NCBI RefSeq assembly: GCF_031877795.1
Contig: NC_133954.1
Coordinates: 9,639,466-9,703,465, forward strand
DNA from: Strix aluco
Taxonomy: Eukaryota > Chordata > Aves > Strigiformes > Strigidae
DNA length: 64,000 nucleotides
Direction of reading: 5' to 3'
Shown: positions 9,670 to 54,958 of the stretch, one piece after another
Numbering within the stretch: position 1 is the first letter of the stretch
Layout: every line of letters begins with the position of its first letter
Program-made: the position numbers and the translations under genes
The notes under the pieces: model-generated
The model's database searches: none
What the model saw: the letters and a program-made list of their open reading frames with translations, nothing else
Told to the model about the DNA's origin: nothing

Positions 9670-9696
9670 TTTATACCCGAGACAGTGGGTGTCACC
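9670..9696 (-). promoter_or_regulatory. Core promoter of gene A: TATAAA plus GGGTGTCACC motif
   Basis: TTTATA at 9670-9675 reads TATAAA on the minus strand, about 95 nt upstream of the ATG. GGGTGTCACC at 9687-9696 lies just upstream of it and recurs at the same place in genes B and C. Further upstream, TGCCAAGGGTAATTTGCCAA aligns with TGCCAAGAATAATTTCTCAA of gene B. Confidence 0.75.
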
Positions 9697-17885: not shown

Positions 17886-17905
17886 GCATCAGGCAGAAGC
17901 AAAGT

Positions 17906-17911
17906 TTTATT
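17906..17911 (-). terminator. Poly(A) signal of gene B (AATAAA)
   Basis: TTTATT on the plus strand, about 240 nt past the stop codon of gene B, inside the conserved GAAGCAAAGTTTTATTAG context seen also in gene C. Cleavage is expected near 17885-17890. Confidence 0.8.
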
Positions 17912-18152
17912 AGAGAAGTTTTTTCACCAGCAGGTACATTAGTGGTCCTGACTAACTCAAGTAACTTCTAGAGATTACAGCGTTACAGAACAGAAGGAGC
18001 AGAACAGAGAAGGTGGCCCCCAACAGGCCCCTTCAGAGACACGGCAAAGCATCGCTGAGTTACTTCTACTTTCTCTGCACAGAGGCGTGCAGTGAACATC
18101 GAGTGTTCTGTCTGTGGGTTTCTCTGTATGTCATCTTCTGGTCCATTCCTCC

Positions 18153-21100
18153 TTAATCACAAATTCTCCTGCAGGTCACTGGAGAAAAAACAGAGCAGCA
18201 TTATTTGATTGGAACAGAGATAAAATCCTTCAAATAACAAAAATTTGGCCTGTACAGTGCCCTGCTTTCAGCAGTATCCTGTTAAACAGGAGCAGTTGGC
18301 AGACAACCCAGGAAACCCCAGAAATTCCCTAAATAATTGTGTTTTAACGGGAATTTGCACTTGTGAAATTACAGATTTGCTTTTGTTTTCACTGCTTCCA
18401 GCCTCTTTTGCTAAGCTTTGTTTGGCTGTCTTCTTCTTTACTTCTACTTCCAGATTTTTTCTTTATGCTTCATTTCCCCACCTTTCTCCTCTTAGTTCTA
18501 CTGCTCCCGCTTGTCTCTCACTTGCTTTCTGCTACTCCCTATTGAGTCAGGACTCTCTATAAACCTATTTCTTAGTGACAGCCAACTTTGCACCGCAGTC
18601 GGATCCACTGTAGCAGACCGTACCTGTAGCAGAGTAACTCTCTGAGAAGATACCAGTAGCATGTCCTAGGAGTGTGTGTTGTCTCCTGGCCTTATTACAA
18701 AGGAACAAACTGGAAAAAGTTTTCTTTTTGTGAAAACACAGCTCTTACCTTGTATATCTCCAGTCTTGCAGGGTGGGACTTGGGGCTGGCAGTGGGAAGA
18801 TGAAGTTGTAGTATAGGTGTGGCTTGTCCTAATGACTCCTCCTCCTACACCAGTTCCTACTCCAATTCCTCCTCCATGACTAGTGGGAGAAATTTGGTGA
18901 GAGAAATGGGGAATTTTAGAACTTTACATGATGCTGCTGACTGACTACATGACACAAAGTCTCAAACTATGTCTCTTACAGGGGTTAGAGTATTTTACAT
19001 TGTGTTCTTTTCTCACTTTCAGAGGTGCTTTGCATTTGTGCTCCCCTTTGGCATGGAAATGCAATGCAGAGTGTTGCAATTAATTCTTATTTCGACAGTT
19101 CTCACCCATCTTACTATAGGAGAGAGGTTGTTATGAATGCTGACATAATACCAGTAGTTACAGTGTTGTAACTAGCAGTTAGAGATTTGGTTTCTCTGCT
19201 TTGCAGATGCCAAGGAGTGATGTTTGGTTCAGATTTGAATGTTCATCACAGTAAAGTTGCTCATGAGACAGCTTTTTAATCTCAAAGCATTAAGATGGAC
19301 TAAAGATTATGTCAGATTCACAGTCTAATGCAGATCCTTGATATTTTCAGTTATTCTCTAGCGGATTTAGAGATCTACATACATAAGGTCCTGCTGTCCT
19401 CCTTCCAACAAGCACCGGTAGGTCTGAATCTCCTGCTCCAAACGGCACTTGACGTCCAGTAAGGTCTTGTACTCCTGGTTCTGGCACTCGATCTCCGCTC
19501 TTATTTCAGCCAATTGCTGCTCCACGCATGTGATCTGGTTCTGTAGCTCACCGAGGAGGGTGTTGTACTGGCACTCAGTCTCAGCCAGAGAGGATTCCAA
19601 ATTATTTCTCTGATAAACAAGAAAGCCAAAGAAACAACATTCACTTAAGTGTCACCCTGGAATTTATTACTTCCAATCCAAAAATGAGAGAGCTATTCCC
19701 CCCCACCATGCAGATTGGTAGGTCTGGCTGTTCAGGCTAAGAAATGCAGCAGCAGCCACATCCCAGCTGTAAGTAGACTCACCACCCACCTGGCTGAGCT
19801 GGGCCTGGAGATCGATTTCCAGGGCTTGCAATTGGCGTCTCAGTTCGGTGACCTGGTTGTTGCACGTCTCTACCTCCTGACCGCTTGTAATAACCTCCCG
19901 ATTCACCTCCTCAATCTGAAAATCATCAATCCAGAATAAAGAGCTTCAGAGAATATCTGTGTGAATGGGACTTGCTTTTACAGAAGCAGAATACAGTGAG
20001 CAGCTAGCCAAAAGAAGAGTGAGCAGGGCGAGTTCTCTGTGCGCTGGGCGTTAACCGTCGGCTTCAGCTGCTTACTCTTTTTACAAATCGCATTAACCTC
20101 GGGGCTATTAAGTCTCTTTAATCCAAATGTGGGATATCTCAGTTCCAACAACACACCACAGAGCCTTGCGGCAAACGCTGCTGTTCCAGATGGGACATAA
20201 CAAACTGGTCAGACAGGCCTGTGTCTGCTGTGGAACACGGGGCATAACGAGTGCTGATCTCGGGCTTTGCTGTCAAGGGAGAACTGCTGATTGTCTCCCC
20301 GGCTGTTTTCCGCAGCGCTCCTGTGCCCTGCAATGGGCCTGTCAGTTTGTTTCGCAGCAGGCGTGTTGCTCACCTTGCACTCGTACCAATCCTCAACTTC
20401 CTTGCGGTTGCGCGCTATCAGTGTTTCATACTGGCATCTCAAATCCTCCAAGATTTGCCTGAGATCTGGTCCAGGGCAGGCATTAACCTCCACACTCACA
20501 TCTCCAGTTGATTGTTTTCTCAGGCAATTCATTTCCTGGAAATAGAACCCAGATCAGACTCATACCAGCTTTTGAAAGACAACAGAGCAGAGCAGCGTTT
20601 GGTGGCCAAAAGCAGTGACCCTGCGAGAGGAGCCTCCCAGCTACGGCTGGAGAAGCGCTGGGAGATGGCGCAAGTGTTTTCCCCAAGAAATCTGTTGGGT
20701 AATTTCTCAGCCACTGAAGTCAGCAGCAACTTTCACCCCCCTCAGGCACTCCCAGCGCCAGCGCAGCCCCGAGAGCCGCAGCCGCCTCTCTGCTGCCGGA
20801 GCTCCAGCACCACCCACGAGGCAGATGGATCTGAGCCCCAGAACTGTTGGATGGGAAAGCTGTGGCGTGAAAGTGGTTGATCTTTGCTTTTAAATTTAGA
20901 GCACATTCGTGTAGGCAGAGTTGTATGTCAGGGCCATGGCACTGCAGGCAAGGGCAGGACCCTACCTCCTCGTGGTTCTTCTTCAGGCAGCAGAGCTCCT
21001 CCCGCAGCGACTCCAGCTGGGCCTCCAGGTCAGACCTGCAGAGCGTCAGCTGATCCAGGACCTGGCGTAAGCCGTTAATGTCAGCCTCCACGCTCTGGCG

Positions 21101-23142
21101 CAGGGCCAGCTCCGTCTCGTACCTGGTTTGTGCAAGAAGCAGAAATTCAGAGGGGTAACCTCTCATGTGCTCGGTTTATGTGAAGATCTCTTCCCAACTG
21201 CGCTCTAAACTGTACTTTGTTGTCTAAGCTGAAGGCACCGTGCGTGGCGTTTCTGCACTGCACTTCATGTCTGTTGTGTGAAAGCTTTTCCTTCCTCATC
21301 TACTTCTTTCCAGCTCCTGATCGCTGTATGTTTGATATCACTTATTCAGCTGCATTTCTGTTGTGCTGATCCCAATCTGCACTGGTCTGTGATGGAAATG
21401 TGCCAGCCACACAGCTAAGGACCCCTCCCTGCAATGGCGGTCCCCAGCCCTCACCAACAAACACTGCTGCCAGACGTTTTACCTGAGAATACTAATTAAG
21501 GGAGGGCTGGTGACCACAAGCAAAATGCCTTTCATCACTCCGTCCTGTCCTAATGTGGTGTTGCAGTGAGACTTGCCTGAAGTCTCTGTAATTAGTGCAC
21601 TGAGACTCCCCAAGCAAGATGTAAAGGAGCAGGGAGGAGGCAGTGGGGTTCGTCTACAGAGAGGGGCACTCACTTCACACGGAAGTCGTCGGCAGCCATC
21701 CTGCTGTTATCAATGTCCAGAATGATCTTGTTATTATCAATGGTTGCGCAGACAATCTGGAAGAGAGCAGACCACGAGATATGTCTCACTCCTCTCTGCT
21801 GTTATGCTCTGGAGGTCTATCTAGACTGCAGTTAGGTAGTAACTCTTCACAATTTCCTTTTTCTGTTACCTTCTTATTTAAGTAACCTTGTTCCTTGAGC
21901 AGAGCGGCTGCGGGGGGTGCCTTTGCCTCCTTAACTCACCGTCAGTAAAGAAAAGAGGTCAACTGTGGAGAGGTTGGGAGTCAAAGAGTTGTGAGGTGGG
22001 ACTTCCCCGTTTCGAGATCTGAAGGCAAGTTCCAAATGTGCTTCCAAATAGAAGAGAACCTAAAGACCCTTCCTTAAGACATTAAATCTCAACTGACATT
22101 CAAGCTGGCGTGTTCTGGGCTTCAGGCTCAGGGGTCCTGAGGGAAGATAGCTGGAAGGTATCTTTAAGCCTTAAGAGCAGCCATAACTTTCATTCCGGAC
22201 ATACTAGTGTCAAGCTGTTGGTGCCACTGTGGCAATCAATTCCAAATACTCAACTCCTCTCACCCACAATTTATAATGCTTTGTTTGATACAGCATTTGA
22301 TTTGTATGTCTTGCTCTTCTACAGTTCTCTGCTTTGCTTTTCCTTCTGGGCTGACACCACTACGTTTCCTCAGAGCACACTTGGTAAAATCATATTTATA
22401 ATTGCATAGTCAAAACACGATGCAGCAAAGCATCCTTTTCCTTTTCAAGGGTATTATCCCACCTGTATCGCCTTGCAGCATGCGTCTTGATACGCACCCA
22501 CACTCAGCAATGCCATAGGGGAACTTGCCAAAATTTCTGTTTGTGAAGACATTTAGCAGCACCAACATTACCTCTAACAATTGCAGTAGGTTCTAAATAT
22601 AAATTCAGAAATAAGCTTTAAATAGGGGAGGAGCAGCTGAAAAGGGGAATTACCTGATTCTGAAGATCTTCGATTTCTTTGTAATAGCAGCTGTAGTCCC
22701 GGGGCTCACAGGAGAGGCCCTGTGTAGCGTACCACTCTCTGATCCTGCACTCCAGTTCAGCATTTTCCTTCTCCAAGCACTTCACCTTGTCCAGATAGGA
22801 AGCCAGGCGGTCGTTGAGATTTTGCATGGTGACCTTCTCATCGCAGGATGAAAGCAAACAGTCGCCACCAAGACCACCAACAACCACACCACCTCCAAGG
22901 CCAAACCCAAGGCCATTGCCATAGCAGTTACCACCTCCATAGCTCCCACCAGCCAAGCTACCAACACTCAGTCCCCCTCCATAATTCACTCCACCGCAGT
23001 AACTCCTTCCAGAAAAACCTCTGCCACTGCCTATCCCATAGGAAGAAATCCGTGCTCCACCACCACCACCAATGATACAGCTGCCACCACTGCTCCTGCC
23101 TTTGCTAGACACAGTAATAGTCTCCTTAATGTTGCAACTCAT
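18153..23142 (-). CDS. Gene B: cysteine-rich KRT9-related type I keratin
   Basis: Exons: 22654-23142, 21674-21756, 20966-21122, 20374-20535, 19790-19915, 19383-19609, 18749-18879, 18153-18178; all splice sites are canonical and phases close to 466 aa. Type I keratin that should assemble with a type II partner. Gly-rich head (1 to about 103), rod from [16 protein letters not shown] to the [16 protein letters not shown] end motif, then a Gly/Thr/Ser tail and an 8-residue last exon VTCRRICD. About 28 cysteines (6%), spread over head, rod and tail, including NACPGPD and a CC pair in coil 1B; this is a hair-keratin-like level. Exon 2 ([14 protein letters not shown]) and LLEGGQQD place it in the KRT9 group. 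The upstream in-frame ATG at 23214 was rejected: MSCNIK matches all paralogue starts. Exons 3 and 5 are nearly identical to gene C. Orthology to a named gene is not clear. Confidence 0.9.
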
Positions 23143-23238
23143 GGCGACAGCAGTTGGAAATGCAAGCAGAAGCCCAAAGCAAGATGCACAGCTTGATATT
23201 AAATCAGACTGCAAGTTGTCCGTTGCTGCGAAACTCTA

Positions 23239-23265
23239 TTTATACCTTCCACAGTGGGTGTCACC
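23239..23265 (-). promoter_or_regulatory. Core promoter of gene B: TATAAATAG plus GGGTGTCACC motif
   Basis: TTTATA at 23239-23244 gives TATAAATAG on the minus strand, about 100 nt upstream of the ATG. GGGTGTCACC at 23256-23265 is shared in place with genes A and C. The 5' UTR and TATA region (from GCCCAAAGCAAGATGCACAG onward) are nearly identical to those of gene C. Confidence 0.85.
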
Positions 23266-23404
23266 ACTGTTTCTTCTTCCCATAAGGCTGGCTACTCTAG
23301 CCATTGGTGCCAAGAATAATTTCTCAAAGGGAAGTTTCCTTTCAAGAATCCTGGTAGACAAGGAAGATACTTTACATGTCTCTTGCTAATTTCAAAAATA
23401 CATT

Positions 23405-23462
23405 AGCAATAATGTTTTATGAATCATCAGCTTTTTGTTTATGATGCAAACTTTACAACATT
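23405..23462 (-). promoter_or_regulatory. Conserved distal promoter block of gene B
   Basis: A block with AATAATGTTTTATGAATCAT, then CAGCTTTTTGT and ATGATGCAAACTTTACAACA, lies about 180 bp upstream of TATA. It recurs upstream of gene C (33624-33676) and in weaker form upstream of gene D (44506-44548). TGAATCA (23420-23426) is an AP-1-like site, and ATGCAAA is an octamer/C/EBP-like core. Factor identities are inference. Confidence 0.6.
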
Positions 23463-24717
23463 AAGCCAGGAACAACACTGTCCTAAATTATATACCAGGA
23501 AGAAATCATTAAAGGTTATTGCATCAAAGAGCTCTTTATCTCTCATTAATTTATTTTCATTTTATTTTGAGTCGAATAAGCAGTTTTCATGCAAGGTGCT
23601 GATGTTGGAATATGTAAGATGAAAAAGAAAGCATAAATACGAAGTTTGACTCTCGAATGATGTATGAGGAATGATGTAAGAACTCTGTGGAAAGATCAGA
23701 GACACAGAGATTAACCTTTAAGTCTCTCCACTGGCAAAATGACAAATCCAGAGCACTCTGCTAGGAGACAAGTGAGACCGTGGAGTGATCTCTTAATGGA
23801 CGTGGATGAAAGGTTCTTCATACATGATCGTGGCTCTCCAGTAATTCACAAAGGATTTGTTTCTTTATGTGGAGAGTGTAAAGTAAGGGAAGAGTACTTT
23901 AAGTATTTCCTGTTGTTCAGTGAAAGATATTTCTGCAGTTTTCATCATTATGGATAGTGACTGTTGCTGGGGAAGGGTGGGTGTTTTGAAGCAGTGAATG
24001 GGAGTGAAACATCCTATGGGCAATTTTGCTGTTAATATGTGCTGCATTCTAATGAGAGGTTTGGGACTACTGTCCTAGGAAATATAAAGGCAGAATTGCT
24101 GCTACAGCTGGCACAGCAATCGCTGCCCAACACAGTTCTCCACTGGCTTGGAGAAGATGGATTAAGCACAAACTAGAGGTTCTTCTCTGCCACTAATGTC
24201 TCCAAATCTTAGCTAGGCAGAGAATTAAAAGGTAAGAATCCTTTCAGTCTTCTGACATCAAAATTCAGGCTAAGCTCATTTTCATGAGAAGTTTTGCTGA
24301 GACTCAAGAGCAGTGGCCTTTTCTCTAGGGAGAACCTGTTTCTACTGGCCATTGAGCAAGAGACAGGCGTTCCGCAGTTTTCTGAAACTAACTGTTCACT
24401 GCAAGAAATTCTCCAAGGCTGCTTCGCCAGGGAACATGTGAGCTCAGACTCTTGCTCAAATCCTCGCTCCGTGTCAGGACTGTGGATTAGAATAGCTATT
24501 ATTATGGCAAGTAAATAATCCCATTTACTGAAAGACTGAATTATCCCAGTGTTCCTGGATTTGCCCATCATTTTATTGCTCTTATTCTGCTTAATTCTGT
24601 TGAAAAGATGCCTCCCTTATCTCTGCACTCTTGGATGTTACTTATCCAGTACAAAGAAAGCCAGCAGCATTCCGGTGCTATCTCCAGCAGACTGGAGACA
24701 GGGGTGTGGAGAGATTT

Positions 24718-24830
24718 GCTCCAAGTGATTTACTCCAAGACAAAGAGCACGCCTCTGGCAGAGTCCGCAGTTGAACCCAGGTCTCCTGTATCAGACTGCA
24801 GTGCCTGGATGTTAGCACGCCCTTCCTCCC
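24718..24830 (+). mobile_element. MIR-like SINE remnant upstream of gene B
   Basis: TTGAACCCAGGTCTCCTG and the preceding GGCAGAGTCCGCAG resemble the 3' half of MIR/CORE-SINE elements (GGCAGAGCTGGGATTCGAAC...). The same remnant appears at 34975-35060 upstream of gene C, so it predates the B/C duplication. The family call is from memory of the consensus. Confidence 0.5.
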
Positions 24831-25873
24831 AGGTTGTGCTCCACTTAGTCCCTAAATACAAAGGAGCAAAGCTCAGAATAGGGAAAAACTCCAGTAAAGT
24901 TCTTGTGTATAGGAAGGGCTGCCTGGATTTCATTACTCGGACTGGAGAACATAATTGGAGTCAGGGTGTGGTGGTAAGAATGAACCGAAACTGCCGTGAT
25001 GCTGCAGCGCTGGAAGCGTCGCCTGGCCTGCCTGTGATTCTGCAGAAGTTTCCCAATAGCTGTCTGCAGCAAGCATCTTTTCTGAGTGAGCACACATTCC
25101 TCCCTCTGCTCCACAGTTATCATTTTAGCACATCAGAAGAATGCAGGCAGAAACACGGGATGACTTACTCCTCTGTGGGAGTGGAGGATGTCTGCATGCC
25201 TATTGCGGTAATTATTGCGGAGAGCGGAGAGGATGGCTCCTGCTCCTCTGCAATCCCTTGGTCCCTGTGGGCCTGTAGCTTTACCCATCAGACCCTCCCC
25301 TTTCTCCGCGGGCCTTCAGCAGCACCTTTGCCCAGATCCTTGCATGGCACACGCTTGCCCTCTTCCTTGTTATTTTTCCTTTTTGTCTTCAGGAAATGGG
25401 TGCACTTGTTAAGCTAAGATAAAATTAAATAATTGTTCTAAAGACCTTAAAAAAATAAATTAAGCTTTCCCTCCCCCTATTTTCATTCGGTTATTTGAAC
25501 TCATAAGCTTCCTGGGTCTGTCTCATTAGCACAAAGAAATATGGAAATCTCATGGAAATGTAGTTTCCAGCCCAAGGTTTGCAGCTCCATAATTTGCAGC
25601 TCTTTAATATATGGGTTGTTTCCAGGGTGTTTTCTGCTGGGGAGCTGTTTATCACAAGCCACCTTCTCATGCTCTCCAGACGCATCCCAACTTGCAGGTC
25701 CACAAACAACATCACAGTGTCTTAGGAGCTGAGTCTGTACCCCCTGGGGGCTCTCCAGGGGCATATTCATAAAGTCTGGATCATTAGAGTCCTTCTGGCC
25801 GTGTCATTAGGCCTCTTTCACCTCTCAGGAATTTAGGACAGCTCCCTTGTGAAAGTGCCGGCCCTGGTGGGAA

Positions 25874-25898
25874 GGGTGGGAGGGGTGGGAGGGTTGGG
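25874..25898 (+). other. Putative G-quadruplex motif
   Basis: Six runs of three or four G with loops of one or two bases (GGGTGGGAGGGGTGGGAGGG and onward). This fits the canonical four-run quadruplex pattern with very short loops. It is intergenic, about 2.7 kb upstream of gene B. Confidence 0.55.
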
Positions 25899-27799
25899 AA
25901 GGCCTTGGCCACAGCCCGGGGAGCGGAGCAGCTAGATGTCAGTAGCAGTTTGCAGGAGAAGGAAACTAGCCCAGACCTGGTGGGAGGCAGCCGGGGCTCC
26001 CAGAAGAAAGTGGCAAGCTCTTATATATTGTAGGTAGCCTAGAGTTTCCAGAAGACTGAAAACTGGAAGAGCATCAGCACAGTATCTTTATATTTTTAGA
26101 AATGAGAGTGTGAGGACTGACAGACTGGGAAGGTTTGAGGCCAGAAAGGGCAGTGGTGGGTTGTCTTCCTGTCTGTCTTTGCACTGAACAAGGTGGGAGA
26201 AGACAATGGGAAAGGAAAAGGGAAAGATTTGTTTTCCGACAGCGAGAGCTCTGAGAACAACTGGGGTATACACAGAGGAGTCCAACCAATGGAAATTGGC
26301 CTTTAGAACCATGATAAGCATCTCTTTTGATCTCTTGTGAAGCACTGGTCTTACACGTCTACTGAGAGATTTCTGCATCAAGTCTGGGACTTCCTGTAGG
26401 GCTGGAACTGATCTTTAAAGAAGACTTGATTTAAGAGTGTCTACCTATGGCCACTCTTCTGAGTCACGATTGCAATTGTTCCAGTGCTGCATTTTCTTAT
26501 TTTGCTCTGGCCCCTGGACAGTATTGGGTTGAGTGTCTGGTAGATGAGATTAAAGCAATACCACTGAGACATCTTCTCACCATGATCTTCTACAATGGGA
26601 GAAGGGCACCTGTCACCTGCTCCCTGGTACCTGAATGACTGGGGTTCTTCAGACACTTGCTACCTACAGGCCTTGGAGATGGCGCTTTCCTGGAAGGTTT
26701 CAGGCTGTGTTGAGTCCATTTCTGTAGCAAGAGAAATTGGTGTCTATATACAAGAAGTGATGCTAGAAAAGTGTCCCACACTATACCGTATATATGATCC
26801 TGAAATGGTTTTGCCCTTGTGCCCCTTCTCCTCCTCCTCCAAGGCTGCCTGTTCCATAACCTCCAGCTTTTGACAAAAAAGGAGTAACCAGGAGTTTTGC
26901 TCTGCCAGGTCATCTCATAAGTGAATGCGACTCCTGTAACAGCCACATCGTGGTGTACCAGATACCACAGCAGCCATACCCGGTGCTGCTGCTTTAGCTG
27001 GGAAGCTGCAGGTGGAGTGGACATGTAAAACCAACCACTGCTTGGTTTTCTGCACCAACAGACAATCTAATCCTCAAAACACCCTCCAGCTCATCATGGC
27101 TTTTAACTGAAAATGCTCCAAACCCAGAATGACTCTGCAAGCTCCCCATGGCTGGTTCCCGTGGCTGCACCCACCAGAAGTGCTCCAGGGCCCCGAGTTA
27201 CCGCTGCGGCCCTCGCGTCTCCACGCAGGGCAGCGTCCGGGCGCGGGCACGCCGCCGAGCCGGTCCACGCTGACTCAGCGTCGCTACGTGGCTGCTGGTC
27301 GAGGCCCCGAGGAGGGGGTGATCTCTGCCTTCTTGTGAGGTTTGAGAGCTAATGGCTCTGTGTATCCAAAGGTCCTAGCTGGCTTTTTGCTCCATTGTAT
27401 TCTCTGTTGAGCTGCACTTTTTCAGCCCCCATCCTGCCCTCTCCAGTTCTCCAAAGAAAGTACATTTAATGTAAAGATGATCTTTCAACAGTTCTTGATG
27501 TTCAGGTTTAAACTCTTTGAAACAGAAGGATGACCAGTAAATGACTCAGTCATCAGTCACTGTGTGAAAATAGATAGGAAATAAACCCTTTGCCTCCAGT
27601 CCTTCTCCCAGTGGGAAGATTCCTATAAAATGGAAGGGGTAGGTCGGAATACAAGCCATGTCAGCAAAACTGAATCAGTTGTGGAGACCAAGATTTCCTC
27701 TTCAGGTCCCCAGGCTGGCTGATGAAGTGTGAGAGGGCACAGCTCAGATGTGGCCACACTAGACTGGGGCTGTGGCAATCTGTCTCCACATGTTCCATC

Positions 27800-28118
27800 A
27801 CTGACTTTCAAAATTTTTCTGAAATTTTGTGTTTTAGCACAATGCTCTGCGGGAAGCCCACGGACACCTGCCTGGTGAGGCTTCCGAGCAGATCCCAGAG
27901 GATGCTGCTTAGGGACGGGCAATGCTGCCGCAGGCTTTGACGGGGAGGAGGTGGGCAAGACCTGCAAGGCCAGCGAGGCCGTTCTCCAACTGCTGCTGGC
28001 AAAGCAGCTTTGTCCTCAGGGGAGTACGACCCCGAGCAGGTTAGTGACCCCTGTACCTGGATCAGCACCTCATTTTCTAAAGGAACTCAGTCTCTGGACA
28101 CAGGTTTCTTGATTGCAT
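27800..28118. repeat. Duplicated 3' flank of gene C (partner at 17560-17885)
   Basis: Starts at GTTTTAGCACAATGCTCTG and matches the gene B flank to the poly(A) site, with small indels. From TTCTCCAACTGCTGCTGGCA to the poly(A) signal the two are almost identical. Confidence 0.8.
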
Positions 28119-28134
28119 CAGGCAGAAGCAAAGT

Positions 28135-28140
28135 TTTATT
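28135..28140 (-). terminator. Poly(A) signal of gene C (AATAAA)
   Basis: TTTATT on the plus strand, about 290 nt beyond the stop codon of gene C, in the same context as gene B. Cleavage is expected near 28115-28120. Confidence 0.8.
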
Positions 28141-28430
28141 AGAGAAATTTTTCACCAGCAGGTACATTAGTGATCATACTACTGGTTAACTCCAGCAATA
28201 GTCATGGCGGTTGGGCACACGCAGCGATACAGAGTAGAAAAAGCAAATAGCAAAATAAAGCAGAATGTGGCCCAACGCTCTGCTTAGCCCTCTGACACAT
28301 TGCTTAGCATTGCTGAGTAATACAAAAGAGCACACTCCTTGCCCTTTGCAGAGGCATACAGTAAATATTGTCTTTCTTCATCCATGGCTCTGCTTCAGGG
28401 TTCTCTTGTTGGATATTCTCATTTCTCTGC

Positions 28431-33360
<4,930 letters not shown>

Positions 33361-33456
33361 TTTGAGGACAGCTGCAGATCCAACCCAAAGCCCAAAGCAA
33401 GATGCACAGCTTGATATTGAATCAGACTGCAGGTTGTTTGTTGCCGCAGATCTCTA

Positions 33457-33483
33457 TTTATACCTTCCAAAGGGGGTGTCACC
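33457..33483 (-). promoter_or_regulatory. Core promoter of gene C: TATAAATAG plus GGGTGTCACC motif
   Basis: TTTATA at 33457-33462 gives TATAAATAG on the minus strand, about 100 nt upstream of the ATG; GGGTGTCACC lies at 33474-33483. The layout is the same as in gene B. Confidence 0.85.
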
Positions 33484-33623
33484 TGTAGCGTGTTTCTTCT
33501 TCCCACGGGGCTGGCTAGTCTTGCTGTTTATGCCAAGAATAAATAGCCCATAGGCAGTTTCCCTCTAGAAATCCCAGTTCACAAGGAAGATACTTTACAT
33601 GTCAGCAGCTTATTCCAAAAAGT

Positions 33624-33676
33624 AAAATAATGTTTTATGAGTCATCAGCTTTTTGTATGATGCAAACTTTACAACA
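33624..33676 (-). promoter_or_regulatory. Conserved distal promoter block of gene C with perfect AP-1 site
   Basis: AATAATGTTTTATGAGTCAT followed by CAGCTTTTTGTATGATGCAA, at the same distance from TATA as in gene B. Here the AP-1-like site is the exact consensus TGAGTCA (33638-33644), versus TGAATCA in B and D. This could make C more AP-1 responsive than B (inference). Confidence 0.6.
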
Positions 33677-34974
33677 AGTCAAGAAAAAAAGTTGCCCTTG
33701 ATTATGTACAAAGAAGAAACATTGGTATTTATAACATCAAAGTGCCTTTTATCTTTTATTAATTTGTATTTATTTTATTCTTAGTCCAATAAACATTTTT
33801 TATATCACATGCTATGGTAGAGTACGTGGAACAAAAATGGGAAATTAACATAAATTCTCACTTTTGAAAAGTGTGAACAATAGTGACCGTAGTAGTGAAA
33901 AGACCAGGGATATGGCAGTGTAGATGTCCGTCGCCTGGCACAGGGACAGACAGCAGGTCTAATACATGCTTGACTGTGAGATTTCTTAAATCACTGAGAC
34001 AATTCCCCCGTGGGTTTAGTTCCCCTTTTGTGGCTTAGATGTCTTTGGTCATGCAAAGACAAGTCAACTTGCTCACAGTCTGCGAAGATCGGGCCTGCTA
34101 AATGTTGGAAGTCTTCTGTGTCCAGATGTTACCCAGACTTGATGTAAGCCGAAGTGCATGAAGTACCTCTCTGAAGTTATTTTTCAATTACTTTAATTGC
34201 CGTCCATGCTGCCTCAATTTGTGGTGATCGTAGATAAAGAAAGAGATGACAGAAAAGGGAGTATCCATGGGCGATATATCCAGTTCCCTGGATGGCCCGA
34301 GAGGTGATCCCTCAGGTCTTTGCCATTACTAAGATTGTGCTGAGCACAAAATAAGGAGAAAAGCTTTCCAAGTTTCTTAACTGAGTTTGTCAGAGCAGTA
34401 GCAGGCATTAGCCCAGCCTGGCTAGTGATGGGAGCGGGATCTCCGAAAGCAGGCAAGCAATAGCCAGAGGAGTGTTCGGGGAACTGGCTCGGCCAGTACA
34501 AGTCCCTCTCCAGCAGACTGCTGTAACGAGAGGAGATTCTGCTCTCCAGGGGACGGAGGCTTCTGTTCCCTACAGCGTGGAATTTCCAAGCAACTCTTAC
34601 TCACAAGTAACCTTTGACTCAAGCATGTCCGCATTTACAGGAGCAGTTGTGATAAATCCTCTTTGGCGCTGAGTGTGACACCTGAGAGGGAGCCCTGAGA
34701 GCAGCCGTCACCTCCAGGAAGAAAGGCAGAGAAAACCTACGCTCGTACGCGCAGCCACCTCTCACTTACTGCTGGGAAGCTGGGTGGCTTCTGTCACCAT
34801 GGCAGGAGAGTGTCCCCAAGCATATATATAGATGTGATCGTCGTCTCACCAGCATAAGTTAGGACTCCCCACTCTCCAGTGAGATAATTTATTTCTTTAC
34901 TTAGATCAGAAATGATAAAAAGACGCCTACCCAAGGCTTGCAGCATCCTAGAATATTCATTATTCATATGGTGC

Positions 34975-35060
34975 AGTAAAATAACTTGCTCAAGGACAAA
35001 GCCGGAGTCTGTCAGAGCTCGGATTCCTGGCTAAGACTGCAGGGCCTGAAATACGAGTCC
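34975..35060 (+). mobile_element. MIR-like SINE remnant upstream of gene C
   Basis: TAACTTGCTCAAGGACAAAG followed by GTCAGAGCTCGGATTCCTGG resembles the MIR 3' region. It is the duplicated counterpart of the remnant at 24718-24830. Confidence 0.5.
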
Positions 35061-36019
35061 ATCCTGCCCCTGGGAACACGCCCCCCTGCTCCCCACACAG
35101 CCCAGACTCACAATAGTGAAAATCATGAGCAAAAAGGAGAATAGGGAGTAAATCTGACTTTCATGCGTCGTTTTGAGGAATATAATTGAAGACAGGGTGT
35201 GGCTGTAAGAGCCAACAGAAATTAATATGTCTGGATTGCTTGGAGCTTTGCTTCTGCCGTGTAGGTTTTCAGAAGTTGCCTAACAGCAATCTGCAGAGAG
35301 CAGCACTCTGGGCTGAGCTTGCCTTTCTTTCCCTTTCAGAGTCTTTGGTTTAGGAGGAGACATTGCAGATATTGGACATTTCTCTATGGGTGGGCAAGGA
35401 GCACCTACACCTCCTTCTTTCAGCGATTGCCTACTAGGAAGAAGGAATAAGTCTTGCTCCACAAAACAAACTGGTTTGCAGCACTGTATGACTGCTCACA
35501 TATGTCCTGGCAGAAAGGTCCACGGGCTACTCAATCCCGTTTTACCAGTGAAGATTAGAAACAATCATGCAGTTCTTCCAAAGGACTCGTATTTGGGATA
35601 TAATGACATTCTTTGGAGCTTTACTGGGCTCCCACCAGGACACGGAACACGGGACTGGTACAGCAGATGCATCCAAAAGCCAGTCCCTGCCTAAGCAGCC
35701 TGGGCTTTGGAGCCGGTTGGGTGCTTGTCGCGCTCTGTGCTGGCGGGTGCCGCTGTCTGCAGCTGGCGGGGGCGCGGGGTGGGTTCCCCCCAGGCACTGT
35801 GGCGTTGCCCTGCTCCTCCCCGCCAAGCCAGTGCTGGCTTCTGCTTTCTCCAGCTGTGAGCCACCATCTTGTGCTGAAACATCCATCAATACCCTTTTTT
35901 TCCCCACTAAACTGATTTCCCTACCTCCACTTTGGTTATTATTTGTGTCCCTGTAGCCTAGGGGCATGGCCTTGGCGCAGAACGCTGCATAGGAGAGGGC
36001 TGTGCATGTCTAAGACATA

Positions 36020-36290
36020 AAAATGTCCCAGAAGGATTTACAACCTAAGTGTAAGACAGGAGGAAACAAATTATTTCATACAGGTGGAAGTAAAGGAAGC
36101 AATGAGAGGCTATTAGCCGGTGTGATTAGCAGTGGGCTCAGCACAATGTCAGTGCAAACGCCGTTAGGTCTTGTGGGCATTATGGCAAAGAAGGGAGGTC
36201 TGAAAGTGGACAAAGAGGTAATAAGTGTAAATATTGACACACAGCGATGGCAGCTCCGGAGGAGGCAGGGAGGTGTTACACTTGCCAGCA
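36020..36290 (+). mobile_element. Ancient interspersed repeat, family not identified
   Basis: The stretch beginning near GATTTACAACCTAAGTGTAA and including AGCAGTGGGCTCAGCACAAT and GGCATTATGGCAAAGAAGG recalls an old sauropsid interspersed repeat seen in many copies in bird and reptile genomes. This is from memory and the family name is uncertain. It is strongly diverged and non-coding. Confidence 0.3.
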
Positions 36291-39200
36291 ATGCTGTGGG
36301 CACTGGAGTTCAGTCCTGTGGGCGCTGCGACTGTCCCAGTGCAGAGTGTTTTTGCAAAATGTCAGCCTGTCTCTTCCACGCTCTGCTCACTTTTCTTATC
36401 AAAGTTGATAATGTTTTCTTGTGTCAACTACAAGAAGGGTGTGTCTAATTTGACAGAACTTTGCTTTCATAAGCATTGCTTCAGTGATGTTTGTGCAACC
36501 ACACTGGAGTATGATTTTATCTTGTCACTTGTAATTACCATTAATAATTTGCATAATGGCCATTAGGCATCACTTATTAAACATTTCTTTGATGTGATAC
36601 TGAGCTGGCTCCAGACCTCATGCTCCCACCTTTCAAATGTAGACCATAACTTTTTTCTGGCTAATGACTCATTGGTTTATACCACCATGTTTAGCAAAAT
36701 TCCTGTAAGGCAAGTGAAATAATTATCACAGTGAGTTTGGTAACAGCATGATCCTGGGTCTTAAATACGCCTCAGAGACCAAGGTGATTACTCTGTTTCA
36801 GTTGCTTTCTTGCTGACTGTTCACATCTTCAGACTCCCTCTGAACATCTGTGGTGATGGAGTAGAAGTTCAGCAGAACAAGGTGGACAGAACGAGATTTC
36901 TTCCTGCTGAAGCTCACAACCTTCCCTGATTCCCTTTGTGGAGGGTTTGGAAGGAAATTCCAGCGCCCACCAGACGATGACAGTGCAGCCAGACTTCCCA
37001 GTATTTGGATCTCTGGAAGCACTGCTCATTATCATGGCAAAGAAGGGGACCAGAGAATTCGTGTTAGGCCAGATGGGAGGATGCTGATGGGTGAATGACA
37101 CCACGGCAGTTTCACTCCTGCACGGACAGCTGAGTGCCGGCCGGAGGAGGAACAAGGCGTCCGCCTGCGGTCCCCGCTGGCAGGGCCGCGTGGGTCAGAG
37201 CAGAACCTGCCCAGCAGAACGGGAGGATTCGGGTGCTGCCTGCACTCAGAGGCCACTCAGTGGTACAAGAGCGACAGGCAGCCAAAGGCATGGGCCAGCC
37301 ACAGCCTCCCCAGAGTGTCTTCTTTTTATCTTTGTTTCATATTTGTACTAAAAAGTCTCTTCATTTCAATGCACTTTCAATAGTGGTTCCCACTGGCAGT
37401 TTACATTACTTTATTCAGTGTACTGAGATGAGAAATCTCCTGCTTGATTATAGTTGTAGTTTACTCTTCTCTATAATTCTTTATAAATATTGCACAAGCC
37501 AGTAGACAAAAATACAAACCCCACAGATGATAGTTACTATGGGTGTGAGTGAGACTGTACCTGTCTGCGTACTTTATAAAGTAGACTTTTATAGAGGAAT
37601 TATAGTTTATACATCACACCAGAATATGGCCTGCTATTAAAAATGCAGAGTGCCTGTCATCAGGTGTAATGGCTTGGGCAGTGCAGTGCTGAGTTCCAGC
37701 ATTGGCCATGTGCAAAACGAGCTGCTTGCTTTCTGTTTCTCCACTGATGTCTTAAACCTCTGGTATGTTCACTCCTCAGGGGGTTTTCTGACGGTGGTGT
37801 GGTTCCCGTGTGTCTGCTCTCTCTGTAAGACAGAGACTGTCCCTGCTGGAGTAACCGCAGGGCCTCTTGTCTGCAGCCACTGGTGGGGATGCTGGAGCTG
37901 CCTTCCAGCCCGAGCGCTGACAGAACTCCCCCTCTCCTCTCTGGGCTCCCGTCCTTGCTCTTTTTATCGTCAGATTTCTCTCCCAATCTTTCACCTTCAG
38001 CCTAAGTCTGAACCTTCAGTCTCAGTTCTGTCTGTCTGAGGTACTCATTCACTCTTGCTTTGCAAGATTTGTACATTAAGAGAGAAGAACGAGCTCTTCG
38101 GAGCCGCCCCCCCGCGTGCTCGTGGGAGTGGCTGCGTGTGTGGCGTGGGACAGAAGTTTGCCCACAGTCAGTGTCCCAGGTCACTTCTTGTCCTGCGTCC
38201 TCTGCATTTCATTTCTCTCCTCCCCATCTCTTCCTGCACTGTTTCCACAGTCAGCGTTTCCCATCACTGTCCAGGGTATAAACTCATTGGGCAGGGAAGG
38301 CACCTTTTTATTTCTGCAAAGCATTTAATGCGGCGACCGTAGGGCTGCTGTGTAAACACCGAGGCAGGTTAAATAACACTGAAATGCACGGAATAATTAG
38401 TGTAGCAGGAATGGGAGATACAGAACTTAGTAGAGAAAGTATTTAACACAAAGCCTTGCGCAGAAGCTCGTTAGAGCAATTACCCCCACAGGGCTAACAG
38501 GAGTCTGTTACTTGGACAGAGCGGGGAGAGGCCACCCCCGGAGGGACCCGCTGGAGCCGCCCGATGCCGCCCCGGCCGCTGTGCGGTGCCGTCACCGACA
38601 CGACGCGTGGCCGGGAGCTGGGAGCTCAGAGCACGAGGGGTGACACCCGAGCAGAGGTTTTCTGCAGAGCAAAGACCCCAAGCACGAAACAAAAGCCCCG
38701 CCTTTGCTGTGGTTTTTGCCAAGAGAATAGCTGGCTGTGGTCAAGCTTTGGCTTCCTCCATGTCGTCATTCCAGAAACATCTGGGCTGTTTCTTTCTTTA
38801 GACACCGACACTCGTGTCCCCTGAAGTCTTCTTGTTCGAAGCCTTCGCGTTAGCCCTCTGTGTGAAGTTAGTTGTCAAACCCCATGCAGTATTTCGCTGC
38901 AGAAAGGGGCTAACAGAGCCACGTGTCGAGGAGCAGAGCTTGGGAACAGCCCTGGCAGGCGGGCTGACACCTGGGTTAGACACTGAGAGGGGACAGGCTG
39001 CATCTTGAGTCGCTGCTTGCACAAGCAGCAAAATGCAGTTGTGTTCCTCAATGTGTTTGTAATTCCTTTCACTGCGGTAATAAAATACCAGCACCTTTTT
39101 TTTTCTGGCTGTTTATTGTATCTTACTTTTAAAAAAATTCTCTCCCACATATTAATTTGTCTCACCCTTTTATCTTCCCACATGTTGCCAGCTGGTTCTT

Positions 39201-39883
39201 CCCGTTTGCCTTTTTTTTAAAGCCATGTAGAGGTTCTTTATTTAGCATTTTCTCTGGGAATTGTTTTCCTCCATCAGGAGGGTGTGTCAAGTCCAGCAGT
39301 GCCTTGCTTTCAAAATTACTACTTCAGTGTTATTTGGGAAAACGTGTTGTTCTTGATTTTATGTCGTTGCTGCACATTCATAATAACTCAGTGTTGTGTA
39401 TTACATTATATTAGCACACACCTAGTTTAATGAAAAGTCGATTTTTGCTCAGCAGTCTCCTTCAATAGAAGACTGTCAGTCAGGCTGCCTTGAAACTCCT
39501 TCCCTGCACTCTCTCCAGCCTCCCTCAATGTTTCTTTCTCATCACCTTCTACTTCATGTCTCAGCTTATGCTTCCTGCTCGGGTAGCCAACGTCCCTTTC
39601 CGCAGCATCAGCTGGTCCCTCTCCTCCATCCTGCTGTGGCTGCTCCTCCATCACCGTCCTGCAGCCGCTGAACTCTGAGGAGCAGGGCACCAGATGGGAA
39701 CATTGCTTTCTTTTCTTTTTCCTTTGTAATGATTGCTTTGTGGACATAGATCAAAGGTGGATTCCTAACCAAAGGTGTGTGATAAATATAACTATCTGCC
39801 TAACAATTTTTTAAATACTTGTATATTAATTTACTTGTAGAAATTATTTCTCAGGTTCAAGGCTGTGTCAGTAGTAGCAAAGT

Positions 39884-39889
39884 TTTATT
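39884..39889 (-). terminator. Poly(A) signal of gene D (AATAAA)
   Basis: TTTATT on the plus strand within AGCAAAGTTTTATTAG, the same context as the transcript ends of genes B and C. It shows that the transcription unit of gene D originally, and probably still, extends to here. Confidence 0.65.
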
Positions 39890-40679
39890 AGCGACAAGCT
39901 TTGGTAGTTGTTAGACAACTGACCGCAGAACAGACTAGCCCAGGTGAAGACCAGTGATTAGATCAAAGCAGCACCGCAGGATGAAGGCAGCAGGCAGCGT
40001 GGGTGGCAGGAAGGTTCTGCAAAGTCCCTTCGAACTGTGCTATAAGCAGAACTGAGAGCTGTCAGGTTATTTTTGCCTTGCTTTTTCCAAAGGGTTTGTT
40101 CTTCGAGAGACCTCCGCAGGGGGCTGTGCAGTGGGGCTGGCAGGAAGCTCCCTTGCCTGTGGTGACCTGCCGAGGGAGAGCAGAAGCGTTGCCTTGTCGG
40201 GGGGTTCGCCTGCATCACGCACCTTTCCCTTACAGCCCCCGGGCTCTTGTACTGACCTTTCTTTTCCCTCTTCTCCCTGGCTTGCTTAATTTTATATACC
40301 TGTTGAAAGGCTGGTGACTGACTGATTTCCCCTGCCAGTTCCTCATTTTCGTATTGTGCTGAAAGTCTTATTTAAACACATTTACTACTAGTAAACCCCG
40401 TGTCAAACATATTTTCTGTGCATAAATTTATAAATGCCCTGTAGCTGCATCCCTTGCCACGGCTTTCTACCACAGCTCAATTCATCCCCATGCTCTACCA
40501 CCAACAGTCACAGCTGCGATTCTGCCCCTCTCCAGAAAAAACTGTCTCCAGCCCCTCGTCACCACCCAGAACAGCCCGGCCATCTCTCCTCCTCCTCTTC
40601 CCCAGGTACCCAGCAGGACTAAAGCAGCAACCCACAGTCACCCTCCCGGGCTCCCAGAGGACACCTCACCTTCCCCGTC

Positions 40680-40787
40680 CCCACCCGGAGCGCAGGGGTT
40701 TAGGGCAGGCAGGGCTGACACAGGCCGGCCTTAAGCCCACCGCCTCTTCCAGCTGACGTTGCAGGGACTCCTCTTCCCACGGGCCCT
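40680..40787 (-). other. Tentative exon 7 of gene D
   Basis: The acceptor CTGTCTCCTTTCCACAG is strong and the donor GGGGAAG|GTGAGG is good. Entry in the correct phase gives a Gly-rich peptide ([17 protein letters not shown]) that aligns loosely with exon 7 of gene C before a TAA. The stop is about 20 nt from the exon end, too close to the next junction to be expected to trigger nonsense-mediated decay. A partly homologous last exon, then non-coding, would follow from about 40299 or 40310 to the poly(A) site. Confidence 0.45.
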
Positions 40788-43700
40788 CTGTGGAAAGGAG
40801 ACAGCTCTGGTATCCAAAGCCCCACATCCCCCCCGGAGATCTGCCCCATCCCCTGGAGCTGCTGGTAGCCTTGGCCTTGGCTCTGTGTCTCCAGTCACTG
40901 TTGGCCACTTCCCCTTTGAACCACGAGGGTCATTAAGAGCAGCAATTAGCACATCCTCCCTGCTGCCTGTCTGTTGACAGCAATTGCTTTTCCATCTTGA
41001 CACAGTCAGGATCACCCGGGGCTCTCAGACAGGCTCTGACAGTGTCATTTCATCCATTGCAACTGGCATTTTGGAGCAAGAACTGATTTTTCATGTAACT
41101 AATTTAGGACTGGAGAGTCCAGGAGAGGCGACCTCAGGGCACCACCATTAAAATACCTCTTTTTCCAAACTGATGGAGCAGGTGGGTGCTCCGGCTGGTT
41201 ATGTGTGTATGCAGCCATTTATGAGATTAGCAGCCTGCCTCACTGTTTCAAAATCTCAGGCACTGGGAGGCAGGGAAGAGCCAACTGCTTTACATACAAA
41301 TTAAATTCCCAAAACTTTAATTAAATTGTTGTGTGAAACTGAAAATGTTTAGATAATTTATTGTTTCGGTTAATTTAACTGCCAGTCCCTAATCCTGTCT
41401 AGCTGTGGCAAAGCCAATAAAACTCAGTTGCATGCCAGTGTGCGTAAAAGGCCTTGCCCAGCTCACAGTGAAAACCGCCCTGGAACGAGCCGTGGTGCTG
41501 CGCCCTGCCCCGGCGGCTGGGGCCGCTCGGGGGCCACTCCGGGCCGCCCTCGCTGGCCCAGCACAGGGGATGGTCTCTGGCTTGCACTCTGGACGTAGAG
41601 CAGAGCCAAAGCCTCACATGCCTCCTGGTTTGCTAACAGGCCCTGGCTGGTAACAGGTCAGTACTGGTTCCTCACCACAACGCTGCTTTCACCACTTGTA
41701 CCACGAATTTTCATACCCCTGTAAGTCAAAGCATAGAGATTTTACTGTGCCGGCTCTGTCTGCAGTCTGCGTACATGATGTCGTGCTGCCCGCCCTCCAG
41801 CAGGCAGTGGTAGGTCTGGATCTCCTGCTCCAGGCGGCATTTGACGTCCAGGAGGGTCTTGTATTCCTGGTTCTGGCACTCCATTTCTGCCCGGATTTCA
41901 GCCAGCCGCTGCTCCACGCAGGAGATCTGATTCTGCAGCTCAGCCAGGTATTTGTTGTAGCGACATTCGGTTTCCGCCAAAGAGGATTCCAGGTTTTCTT
42001 TCTGAGAATGGAAACACCACAAAGGTACCTGGGTGTGCTGCAGGCCCAGCCCGCCTGGGTGCAGGTACGACCCTGGCGGTGCAGCTTTCTAGAGAGAGCT
42101 GGGGAGGCGGAGGCGTGAGTCGTAGTGGCATCACCTACCATGGTGAGCTGGGCTTGTACATTGATTTCCAAGGCCTGCAGCTGACGTCTCAGCTCAGTGA
42201 CCTGTTTGTTGCTTGACTCGATCTCCTGGCTGCTCGTGATGACCTCCAGATTCACCTCCTCCACCTGCAACGTTAGAAAAGAGCAGCCCTTCCCTCACCT
42301 TGCCACAGCATCTCCTGTGCGAGGCCATCACCACGCTGCTTGTGCACGCCCCGCAGTGCACCTGAGTGTTTCCAAATCCGAAGCCCCCCCATTTATTCTG
42401 TTGTAACACCATGCGGAGGCCCCTCTGCCATGTACAGAAGAACCTGAAACTGGGCCGTACAGTGAGATGCTGAGCACATCGTGACACAGTTGCTGATATT
42501 GAGACATCCCTCCTTTCCCCCCAAGAGGCAGAGCAGGGCACAGTACCTTGCAGGCGTACCACTGCTCAGTCTCTTTGCGGTTGCGCTCCATCAGCGCTTC
42601 GTACTGGCACCGCAGATCCTCCAGGATCTTCCGCAGGTCTGGGCCAGGGCAGGCGTTGACCTCCACGCTCACATCTCCGGTCGCCTGTTTCCTCAGACAG
42701 CTCATTTCCTGCAGAGAATACGTGCACCATATCAGTAATATTGACACCTGGGGGGATTTTCCTTCTTCCTTCATCTCAATTTTCTAAGAGCAAGGGGCAG
42801 TCTAACCTCTTCGTGGTTTGTCTTGAGACAACACATCTCTTCGGTCAGAGCCTCACACTGCAGCTGCAGGTCGGTCTTGCAGCTGGCCAGCTGATCCAGG
42901 ACGGGCCGTAAGTTGCAAATATCTGAATCCACATTTTGCCGGAGACCACATTCAGTCTCGTACCTTAAGCCACAGGCAACAAGGAAAGGTCAGCGTGGCA
43001 GTAAGCCGTGGCAACATCCTTGAGTTGAGTTTGTGGGGGAAAAAAATTTAGGATCAAGTTCTTCTTTCGCTTCAGGCATGCAATGCTATGAACATTGTCA
43101 GCGGCACCCACACCTTTCCCAGAGATCTGCATTTTAACACGGCAGCGCGACAAGCAGAGGGTTAGGGCTTCCCCATCAGCACCGCTCCCCTGCCCTTCGG
43201 CGGGCAGTGGGAACCCTCAGGCCAGCACAGGACCCTACTCACTTCACGCGGAAGTCGTCAGCAGTCATCCTGTTGTTATCAATATTCAGAAGGATTTTGT
43301 TAGTCTCCATGGCTGCACACAGGATCTGGAAGAGAAAATGCAGGAGAGAGATTGGGCTTGTGGCTTCCTCTGGCTACGGAAGGCTCTGGAGGAAACACCT
43401 ACCCGGGGTAGTGCAACCCACTTATTTTATAATGATTCCATATGTTGGGGTTATTAATCAGTTAGACGGCATTACCGCGGGGAAACCCGTGTGCCAGCTC
43501 GGTGGAGCAGGCTGTGCTGAAACTTCAGCTCTCTGTACATGCAGTGTCCTCCTCCCTCCAACCCTCCCATTCACCTGCACCTCCAGGGACACAGCTCTTG
43601 CCTCTGCCATTTGACATGGGTCTATTCACATGTGAAAGCAAAGCCCAAAGAAATATTAGGATTTTCTTGAAAAACAATGACTTACCTGGTTTTGAAGGTC

Positions 43701-44219
43701 TTCAATCTCCTTATGGAAGCAGCTGTAGTCCCGTGGCTCGCAGCTGGGCCCTACCTTGGCGTACCACTCCCTGATCTTGCACTCGAGGTCGGCGTTGTCT
43801 CCCTCCAGCAGCCGCACCTTGTCCAGGTAAGAGGCCAAGCGGTCGTTGAGGTTCTGCATCGTCGCCTTTTCATTGTTAGCGAATAAGATCCCATCACTGC
43901 AACCAGCGCTGGCCCTGGTGAAACCGCCACCAACGCCTCGAGTGCAGATGCCTCCACCGCTGAATCCAAGGGCAGAACAAGCCCTCTGGGTAGCTCCAAA
44001 GCTCCCACCAGTAGCGCTGCCAGCGCTCAGCTGCTTCCCAAGTAATCCCTCGCTTAAACTGCCACCAGAAAAATTGCCAACCACACCAGCGAAGTCATAG
44101 GCAGCGTGTCTTCCCGAGGAGGCGGAGGAGACCTTCCTTCCACTACCAGCTGCAGAGCTGCCCGCGCTGCTCCTGCCTTGGGAGCAGGTAGTAACGACCT
44201 GCCTGACGGCACAGCTCAT
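40700..44219 (-). CDS. Gene D: cysteine-rich KRT9-related type I keratin, tail uncertain
   Basis: Firm exons: 43686-44219, 43243-43325, 42807-42963, 42547-42708, 42139-42264, 41775-42001. Tentative last coding exon 40680-40787 with a TAA at 40700-40702, giving about 458 aa. The head (1 to about 116) is Ser/Gly/Ala-rich and less glycine-rich than in B and C. The rod runs from [16 protein letters not shown] to [16 protein letters not shown], then LLEGGQHDI. About 24 cysteines in 429 rod-plus-head residues (5.6%), with six in exon 3 alone. The start MSCAVR was chosen over an in-frame ATG at 44303, which lies only about 10 nt from the TATA box. Tail alternatives: a spliced short tail ending CQPCLP, or read-through of exon 6 to a TGA at 41726-41728 (a KRT19-like tailless form). 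The rod is intact, so it is probably functional. Confidence 0.82.
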
Positions 44220-44318: not shown

Positions 44319-44505
44319 CCATTCCTCATGGATGTTGCCACCGGAGAAGGGCTGTTTATTCTTCCTCCTTGTGACCTGGCTAGTACTTTTTTTTTTTTTT
44401 CAGCCGGAAGTATTTCCCCAAAGGCATTTGTCTCCAGAAATCCCACAACAGAAAGATGCTTTGGTTAACAGAAGCGTGTTTCAAAACTACATCAAAAATG
44501 TTACT

Positions 44506-50181: not shown

Positions 50182-54958
<4,777 letters not shown>

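Follow-up and report, generated by a model that had tools for sequence, protein, structure and literature searches.

What are the three cysteine-rich type I keratin genes, here called B, C and D, that lie side by side in a 64,000-nucleotide stretch of the Strix aluco genome (the window), and from which keratins did they arise? A first-pass annotation, made from the letters alone, had proposed that the KRT9 position in this lineage gave rise to hard-tissue keratins independently of mammalian hair keratins. As described in PMC7086170, the HAS (hard acidic sauropsid-specific, KRT9LC1-3) keratins have cysteine numbers above 20 and are encoded by three genes in birds, located 3' of KRT14 and beside KRT9L, with K9 as the closest mammalian relative and with the hair keratins standing separately. 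The genes of the window were modelled as follows.

18153 to 23142, minus strand: gene B, HAS1 / KRT9LC1 by elimination; 8 exons (23142-22654, 21756-21674, 21122-20966, 20535-20374, 19915-19790, 19609-19383, 18879-18749, 18178-18153); 466 aa, 28 cysteines (6.0%), C-terminus VTCRRICD
28431 to 33360, minus strand: gene C, HAS2 / KRT9LC2; 8 exons (33360-32776, 31812-31730, 31166-31010, 30768-30607, 30192-30067, 29945-29719, 29390-29245, 28456-28431); 503 aa, 26 cysteines (5.2%), C-terminus VPCRRICD
40700 to 44219, minus strand: gene D, KRT9LC3 and by inference HAS3; 7 exons (44219-43686, 43325-43243, 42963-42807, 42708-42547, 42264-42139, 42001-41775, 40787-40700); 458 aa, 26 cysteines (5.7%)
3673 to 9576, minus strand: gene A, cysteine-poor KRT9-like (KRT9L); 8 exons (exon 8 at 3698-3673), 569 aa, 7 cysteines (1.2%)
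50182 to 54958, minus strand: gene E, KRT14/17-like, cysteine-poor; exons 1-6 modelled and the last one placed by eye at about 50279-50182
59733 to 62726, minus strand: gene F, the second of the KRT14/17-like copies, with exons 2-6 modelled and the last one placed by eye at about 59830-59733; exon 1 at and past the window end (G000:C24:9703465-9703659)

The reading frames of B, C and D are open, their exons follow the type I keratin pattern, and each gene has a TATA box (that of B 102 bp upstream of its ATG). All internal junctions of the gene models carry GT/AG. The two limits given in the first-pass annotation coincide with the ATG of D (44219) and with the stop of B (18153). The filament domain PF00038 is matched over positions 1-311 or 1-312 of 313 with E values of 2e-101 or lower (D with a provisional tail), which together with the exon pattern marks all three as type I keratins with a complete filament rod. 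Gene B matches the database protein P0034 from Lathamus at 98%, and C differs from P0013 of Athene cunicularia at 2 of 503 residues. The tail of D, its last coding exon 7 (40787-40700), was found because the canary protein P0072, the database protein nearest to D, ends in GLKASLCQPCLP. That protein, by revealing the real last exon, ruled out a tailless K19-like keratin with exon 6 read through. This exon had escaped a scan of D for a Gly/Ser-rich exon 7, because that scan required a donor site.

The cysteine counts of the first-pass annotation (28 in 466 residues for B, 26 in 503 for C and 24 in the 429 of exons 1-6 of D) are exact in these models, exon 7 of D having been missed, and its description of A and E as cysteine-poor is borne out by 7 cysteines in 569 residues and 3 in 420 modelled residues, respectively. 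In the final models the cysteines of B, C and D fall mainly in the rod (18, 18 and 19), with 6, 5 and 5 in the head and 4, 3 and 2 in the tail. Many positions are shared, as had been noticed: when A to E are aligned, B, C and D share 17 of the 37 cysteine columns. Gene D carried its read-through end in that alignment, so that its tail columns count for nothing. The excess is not due to chance, binomial tails being at most 2.3e-9 for all three genes against the cysteine rate of A or of E. Elsewhere, the 103 database proteins fetched as nearest to A have a median cysteine content of 1.0%, and other type I genes sampled on the same contig, C24 (8 or 9 genes and one keratin-like exon; 17 stretches, exons incomplete) have 0-3 cysteines per rod exon.

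Along the direction of transcription the genes are ordered F, E, D, C, B, A, followed beyond A by three further KRT9L-like genes assigned by best exon match. B to D thus lie 3' of KRT14/17-like genes with KRT9L genes adjoining, which is the published HAS location, and their number is the published bird number. No Rfam family reached its gathering score in the window, and no Pfam retroelement match was found in two database relatives of A. Because published chicken primers match them, C is assigned to KRT9LC2/HAS2 and D to KRT9LC3: both KRT9LC2 primers match C in the right orientation, at 29892-29912 (2 mismatches) and 28391-28411 (3 mismatches), the forward one also matching D with 3 mismatches, and the KRT9LC3 forward primer has its sole match at 43808-43827 in D (3 mismatches), its reverse primer as printed having no match with up to 3 mismatches. 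Gene B is HAS1 by elimination, and D is inferred to be HAS3. B to D are the owl's copies of the known HAS family, with which they share more than 20 cysteines (28, 26 and 26), the three genes, the location, the K9 kinship and the separation from hair keratins as given in PMC7086170; no feature setting them apart from that family was found.

The cysteine counts of B to D resemble those of type I hair (trichocyte) keratins, for which the same function, disulphide-hardened filaments, is proposed, and kinship with these was weighed as a rival reading. In a tree built from 62 rod-domain rows (25 of them in the HAS clade, 4 of them hair keratins), however, B, C and D group with proteins of turtles, alligator, tuatara and squamates in a single clade (100/100). 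Its sister group is the sauropsid KRT9L keratins (joint branch 99/92), and HAS, KRT9L and mammalian K9 share a branch with 100/100, the hair keratins lying elsewhere in the tree. A clade of HAS with hair keratins was rejected (AU p 0.0085) with four hair rows, three of them partial, and was likewise absent from a quick tree with all cysteines masked, in which HAS received 99, HAS with KRT9L 86 and both with K9 100. Exon 3 taken alone does not reject such a clade (AU p 0.375). The HAS proteins have 18 columns of conserved rod cysteines and the hair keratins have 8, and four of these do coincide (hypergeometric 5e-4), though one of the four rests on one of two hair rows; the other 14 HAS columns are not hair columns, and the coincidence of a few positions has been noted in print as well. 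Kinship with hair keratins, refuted at this sampling of four hair rows, is accordingly extremely improbable, and the KRT9-like placement and hair independence in the first-pass annotation stand. Two further ideas were discarded along the way. A donation of exon 3 of B and C from hair keratins finds no footing, that exon alone being uninformative and a cysteine-poor Alligator KRT9L exon having the same neighbouring SDLEAQ letters; and P0043, which might have been a rodent K9, proved to be a keratin prediction of the fused kind.

The phylogeny supports B to D as a cysteine-rich branch of KRT9-like keratins rather than as hair keratins. Mammalian keratin 9 and sauropsid KRT9L are their nearest relatives in the tree, and KRT9L genes adjoin them on the contig, yet these relatives, such as A, are cysteine-poor. 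What did not hold was an origin in this lineage. Among the best 120 matches listed, those nearest to D are all from birds, and yet an alligator protein groups with D, with weak support (92/76), and the turtle, alligator, tuatara and squamate proteins inside the HAS clade, also placed there in PMC7086170, have up to 32 cysteines. A branch restricted to this bird lineage is thus very unlikely; judged by the tree, the branch is older than birds and common to turtles, an alligator, tuatara, lizards and snakes. High cysteine content is not uniform in it, some squamate members having fewer (Ahaetulla 14, Gekko 16).

The first-pass annotation had also asked for a check on a cysteine-rich type II partner, and the same genome has three such genes on contig C27, with 10, 18 and 17 cysteines in the matched rod exons. 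These are candidates for HBS (hard basic sauropsid-specific) keratins, which are cysteine-rich like HAS and differ from the type I B to D in being type II and in lying in another cluster; they are the probable pairing partners of HAS. In chicken, the literature describes HAS1 and HAS2 as highly abundant in beak, claws, feathers and scales and KRT9LC3 as present in the egg tooth, the E10 beak and the wing at the feather stage, and the chicken data in PMC7086170, PMC8742010 and PMC12821399 contradict expression in soft internal epithelia only; passages of PMC4202321 and PMC8072682 added nothing on the HAS genes.

As a whole, with a probability of about 0.95, B to D are the three bird HAS genes, encoding disulphide-hardening type I keratins of hard appendages with a K9-like origin independent of hair. 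The coiled-coil rod of each HAS protein would serve for pairing with a basic type II keratin, probably one of the cysteine-rich HBS set, and intermediate filaments would be built in the keratinocytes of scutate scale, beak, claw, feather and egg tooth, the tissues being those of the chicken work. At cornification, the many cysteines of head, rod and tail would become linked by disulphide bonds, hardening the tissue, as their abundance suggests. The branch itself would have arisen in early sauropsids from a cysteine-poor KRT9-like gene, independently of hair keratins. The basis for this account here is gene structure, cysteine content, phylogeny, the location by KRT14/17-like and KRT9-like genes and the cysteine-rich type II genes.

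Genes B and C are near-identical in exons 3 and 5 only.

20966 to 21122, minus strand: exon 3 of B; the same as exon 3 of C (31166-31010) at 157 of 157 bases, and 98.9% identity for the alignment including flanks
19790 to 19915, minus strand: exon 5 of B; differs from exon 5 of C (30192-30067) at one of 126 bases, and 96.6% identity for the alignment including flanks

Genes E and F show a similar pattern. The likeness of B and C is what gene conversion would give, and it is possibly new: the words 'gene conversion' are absent from the main text of PMC7086170, and among the titles listed by one literature search none was on the subject. Tentatively, and with doubt prevailing, repeated conversion of single exons, confined to exons 3 and 5, which encode rod segments, may keep HAS1 and HAS2 alike. 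Divergence would then be left to exons 2, 4 and 6 and to the heads and tails, and the two proteins would retain a common partner surface and cysteine register but have different ends. Assemblies do err at near-identical tandem exons, and the pattern in E and F could point the same way; strong constraint could produce likeness too, and alone could preserve the protein letters by which other birds were compared. However, both copies have the same exon 3 protein letters in all ten fused bird predictions examined, and the same exon 5 letters in six of the nine in which both copies were found, so that this assembly is not alone in showing the likeness, and none of the 39 fourfold sites in exons 3 and 5 differs between B and C in this genome, which protein constraint would not give. 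An artefact or constraint in place of gene conversion is thus considered unlikely.

The inference drawn at first pass was right yet already known, for the gene group, its K9 kinship and its independence from hair had been published as the HAS/KRT9LC keratins; position, bird gene number and the argument for convergence likewise appear in PMC7086170. What is given here are full models of all three HAS genes including the last exons, together with type II genes of this genome that are candidate partners. Trees of HAS genes may be misled by the conversion-like pattern of HAS1 and HAS2, and one more bird genome confirms the published convergent evolution of hard keratins.

The type I keratin cluster lies on the minus strand within the 64-kb window, and its genes A to F were modelled by translated searches for exons, reading of splice sites and assembly. 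In the assembled models the cysteine-rich genes B, C and D have reading frames without stop or frameshift; B (466 residues, 28 cysteines) and C (503 residues, 26 cysteines) carry exactly the counts given in the first-pass annotation. Its figure for D, 24 cysteines in the 429 residues of exons 1-6, was likewise confirmed, and a further exon, identified through the canary protein P0072, brings D to 458 residues and 26 cysteines:

40787-40700, minus strand, last exon of D

Exons 2-5 have lengths of 83, 157, 162 and 126 in each of A to F, and TATAAA lies 97-102 bp before the ATG in A, B, C, D and E. The motif GGTGACACCC stands just 5' of the TATA box in A, B and C (9687-9696, 23256-23265 and 33474-33483, minus strand), with a degenerate version before that of D (about 44333-44342, minus strand) and none visible 5' of the TATA box of E. 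Downstream of B and C, past the final exon of each, 17609-17954 and 27828-28181 are 84% identical, probably as part of the B/C duplication. Intron 7 of A, a cysteine-poor KRT9-like (KRT9L) gene, holds a reverse-transcriptase-like stretch (4551-4676, minus strand), which resembles a LINE remnant; it forms the end of the predicted chicken and guineafowl KRT9L proteins and occurs in part in the ostrich one (P0226, P0233, P0221), and Pfam gave no reverse-transcriptase or retroelement match in two database relatives of A.

The cysteine enrichment of B, C and D is more than chance, with binomial tails of at most 2.3e-9 against the cysteine rate of A or E. Among 293 fetched database proteins, the 219 with 330-700 residues were grouped by nearest window gene, giving median cysteine contents of 6.0% for B (n=10), 4.9% for C (n=64) and 5.6% for D (n=17), as against 1.0% for A (n=103) and 0.5% for E (n=25), although single C-nearest proteins fall to 0.8% and A- and E-nearest ones reach 2.9% and 3.3%. 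The protein C differs from one of Athene cunicularia at 2 of 503 residues, and a KRT9L gene elsewhere in the genome is 99-100% identical to a Bubo bubo protein over five exons, this being the sole bird compared. Ten bird annotations of 821-1013 residues, P0001 and P0002 among them, fuse two genes of the B and C types.

Genes B-D belong to the hard acidic sauropsid-specific (HAS, or KRT9LC) keratins, reviewed in PMC11816140. The accessible text of PMC7086170 describes two to four HAS genes with more than 20 cysteines on the 3' side of KRT14, flanked by KRT9L genes, with three in birds; mammalian keratin 9 (K9) is their nearest mammalian gene, hair keratins are not close relatives and the similarity is convergent. 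Chicken HAS1 and HAS2 are highly abundant in beak, claws, feathers and scales (PMC7086170), and from the portions available of two further papers, KRT9LC2/HAS2 is present in hard scutate scales and absent from interscale epidermis, KRT9LC1/HAS1 being co-expressed with it (PMC8742010), while KRT9LC3 occurs in egg tooth, E10 beak and later the wing at feather stages (PMC12821399). The main points about B-D are thus already known, because this work covers them; the observation is correct and well reasoned, and concerns a known gene family in another bird.

The 293 proteins were the best 120 matches from each of three protein searches, and from them 22 HAS-like, eight mammalian K9, 12 KRT9L and 13 other proteins, chosen for spread, were aligned with one hair keratin from outside the searches and the six window genes (62 rows, 310 columns). 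In this tree all 25 HAS rows fall in a single clade (100/100) whose sister group is KRT9L, represented by 13 rows, with 99/92 for the branch uniting the two; both join mammalian K9 (100/100), the hair keratins being placed elsewhere (100/100; four rows, the added one and three partial); KRT14/17 rows are not monophyletic and K13/15/19 reaches just 79/99. Constraining HAS and hair keratins to one clade was rejected (p 0.0085); for exon 3 alone it was not (p 0.375). A quick tree with every cysteine masked still recovered HAS (99), the HAS-KRT9L branch (86), its union with K9 (100) and the hair clade (100), without any HAS-hair branch. Together, the full tree, the rejected constraint and the masked tree uphold the claim that B-D are a KRT9-like branch separate from hair keratins. 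Cysteine occupies at least half of the rows at 18 rod columns in HAS and eight in hair, four of them shared (hypergeometric 5e-4, uncorrected for coiled-coil position), one of these on the basis of one of two hair rows; the text available of PMC7086170 considers convergence likely at several cysteine positions, most positions being clade-specific.

An own-genome search with PF00038, in which 127 of 246 first-look candidates were scored, placed the window on contig C24 and the type II cluster on C27. The cysteine-rich type II set that the first-pass annotation proposed looking for is present there, as three genes within 200 kb that are HBS-like (hard basic sauropsid-specific) candidates and possible pairing partners:

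C27, about 2115153-2118831, cysteine-rich type II gene 1, 10 cysteines in matched rod exons
C27, about 2125606-2129363, cysteine-rich type II gene 2, 18 cysteines in matched rod exons
C27, 2138186-2138350, degraded last rod exon between genes 2 and 3
C27, about 2145360-2150681, cysteine-rich type II gene 3, 17 cysteines in matched rod exons

Type II exon stretches outside these genes have 0-2 cysteines each (43 of 47 translated). Other type I genes of C24 have 0-3 per rod exon in 17 sampled stretches (eight or nine genes and one keratin-like exon), and no hair cysteine pattern appears among these stretches, which cover part of the exons; this agrees with the accessible text of PMC7086170, by which all birds studied but the kiwi have lost their type I hair keratins. 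One cysteine-poor C24 exon 4 scored highest against a hair row (50%).

Both published KRT9LC2 primers have a site in C, one at 29892-29912 and the other at 28391-28411, just 3' of the stop codon, the forward primer also matching D with three mismatches. The KRT9LC3 forward primer has its sole match in D, and the reverse primer, as printed, has none. From the naming of KRT9LC1 and KRT9LC2 we infer that KRT9LC3 is HAS3, and B is HAS1 by elimination.

The likeness of B and C is concentrated in two exons:

20966-21122 and 31010-31166, minus strand, exon 3 of B and C, 0 of 157 bases differing
19790-19915 and 30067-30192, minus strand, exon 5 of B and C, 1 of 126 bases differing

Exons 2, 4 and 6 differ at 9/83, 20/162 and 42/227 bases, giving 1/283 differences in exons 3 and 5 against 71/472 in exons 2, 4 and 6 (p 1.6e-14), or 0/39 against 17/43 at fourfold sites (p 3e-6). 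The near-identity reaches only partly into the flanks: of 30 ungapped bases on each side, 27 match downstream and nine upstream of exon 3, 26 upstream and 20 downstream of exon 5, and 11-19 beside exons 2, 4, 6 and 7. The KRT14/17-like genes E and F have a similar pattern of near-identity limited to some exons:

51210-52355 and 60688-62085, minus strand, E and F, 5/666 bases differing in exons 3-6 and 20/83 in exon 2

No title on gene conversion in HAS genes was found among the literature matches listed, and the phrase is absent from the main text of PMC7086170. At protein level, the exon 3 copies are identical in all ten fused bird predictions holding both genes and the exon 5 copies in six of nine, a single copy being found in the tenth. 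An assembly error, by which the near-identity would be an artefact, is less likely, and gene conversion between B and C is the simplest reading of their near-identical exons 3 and 5.
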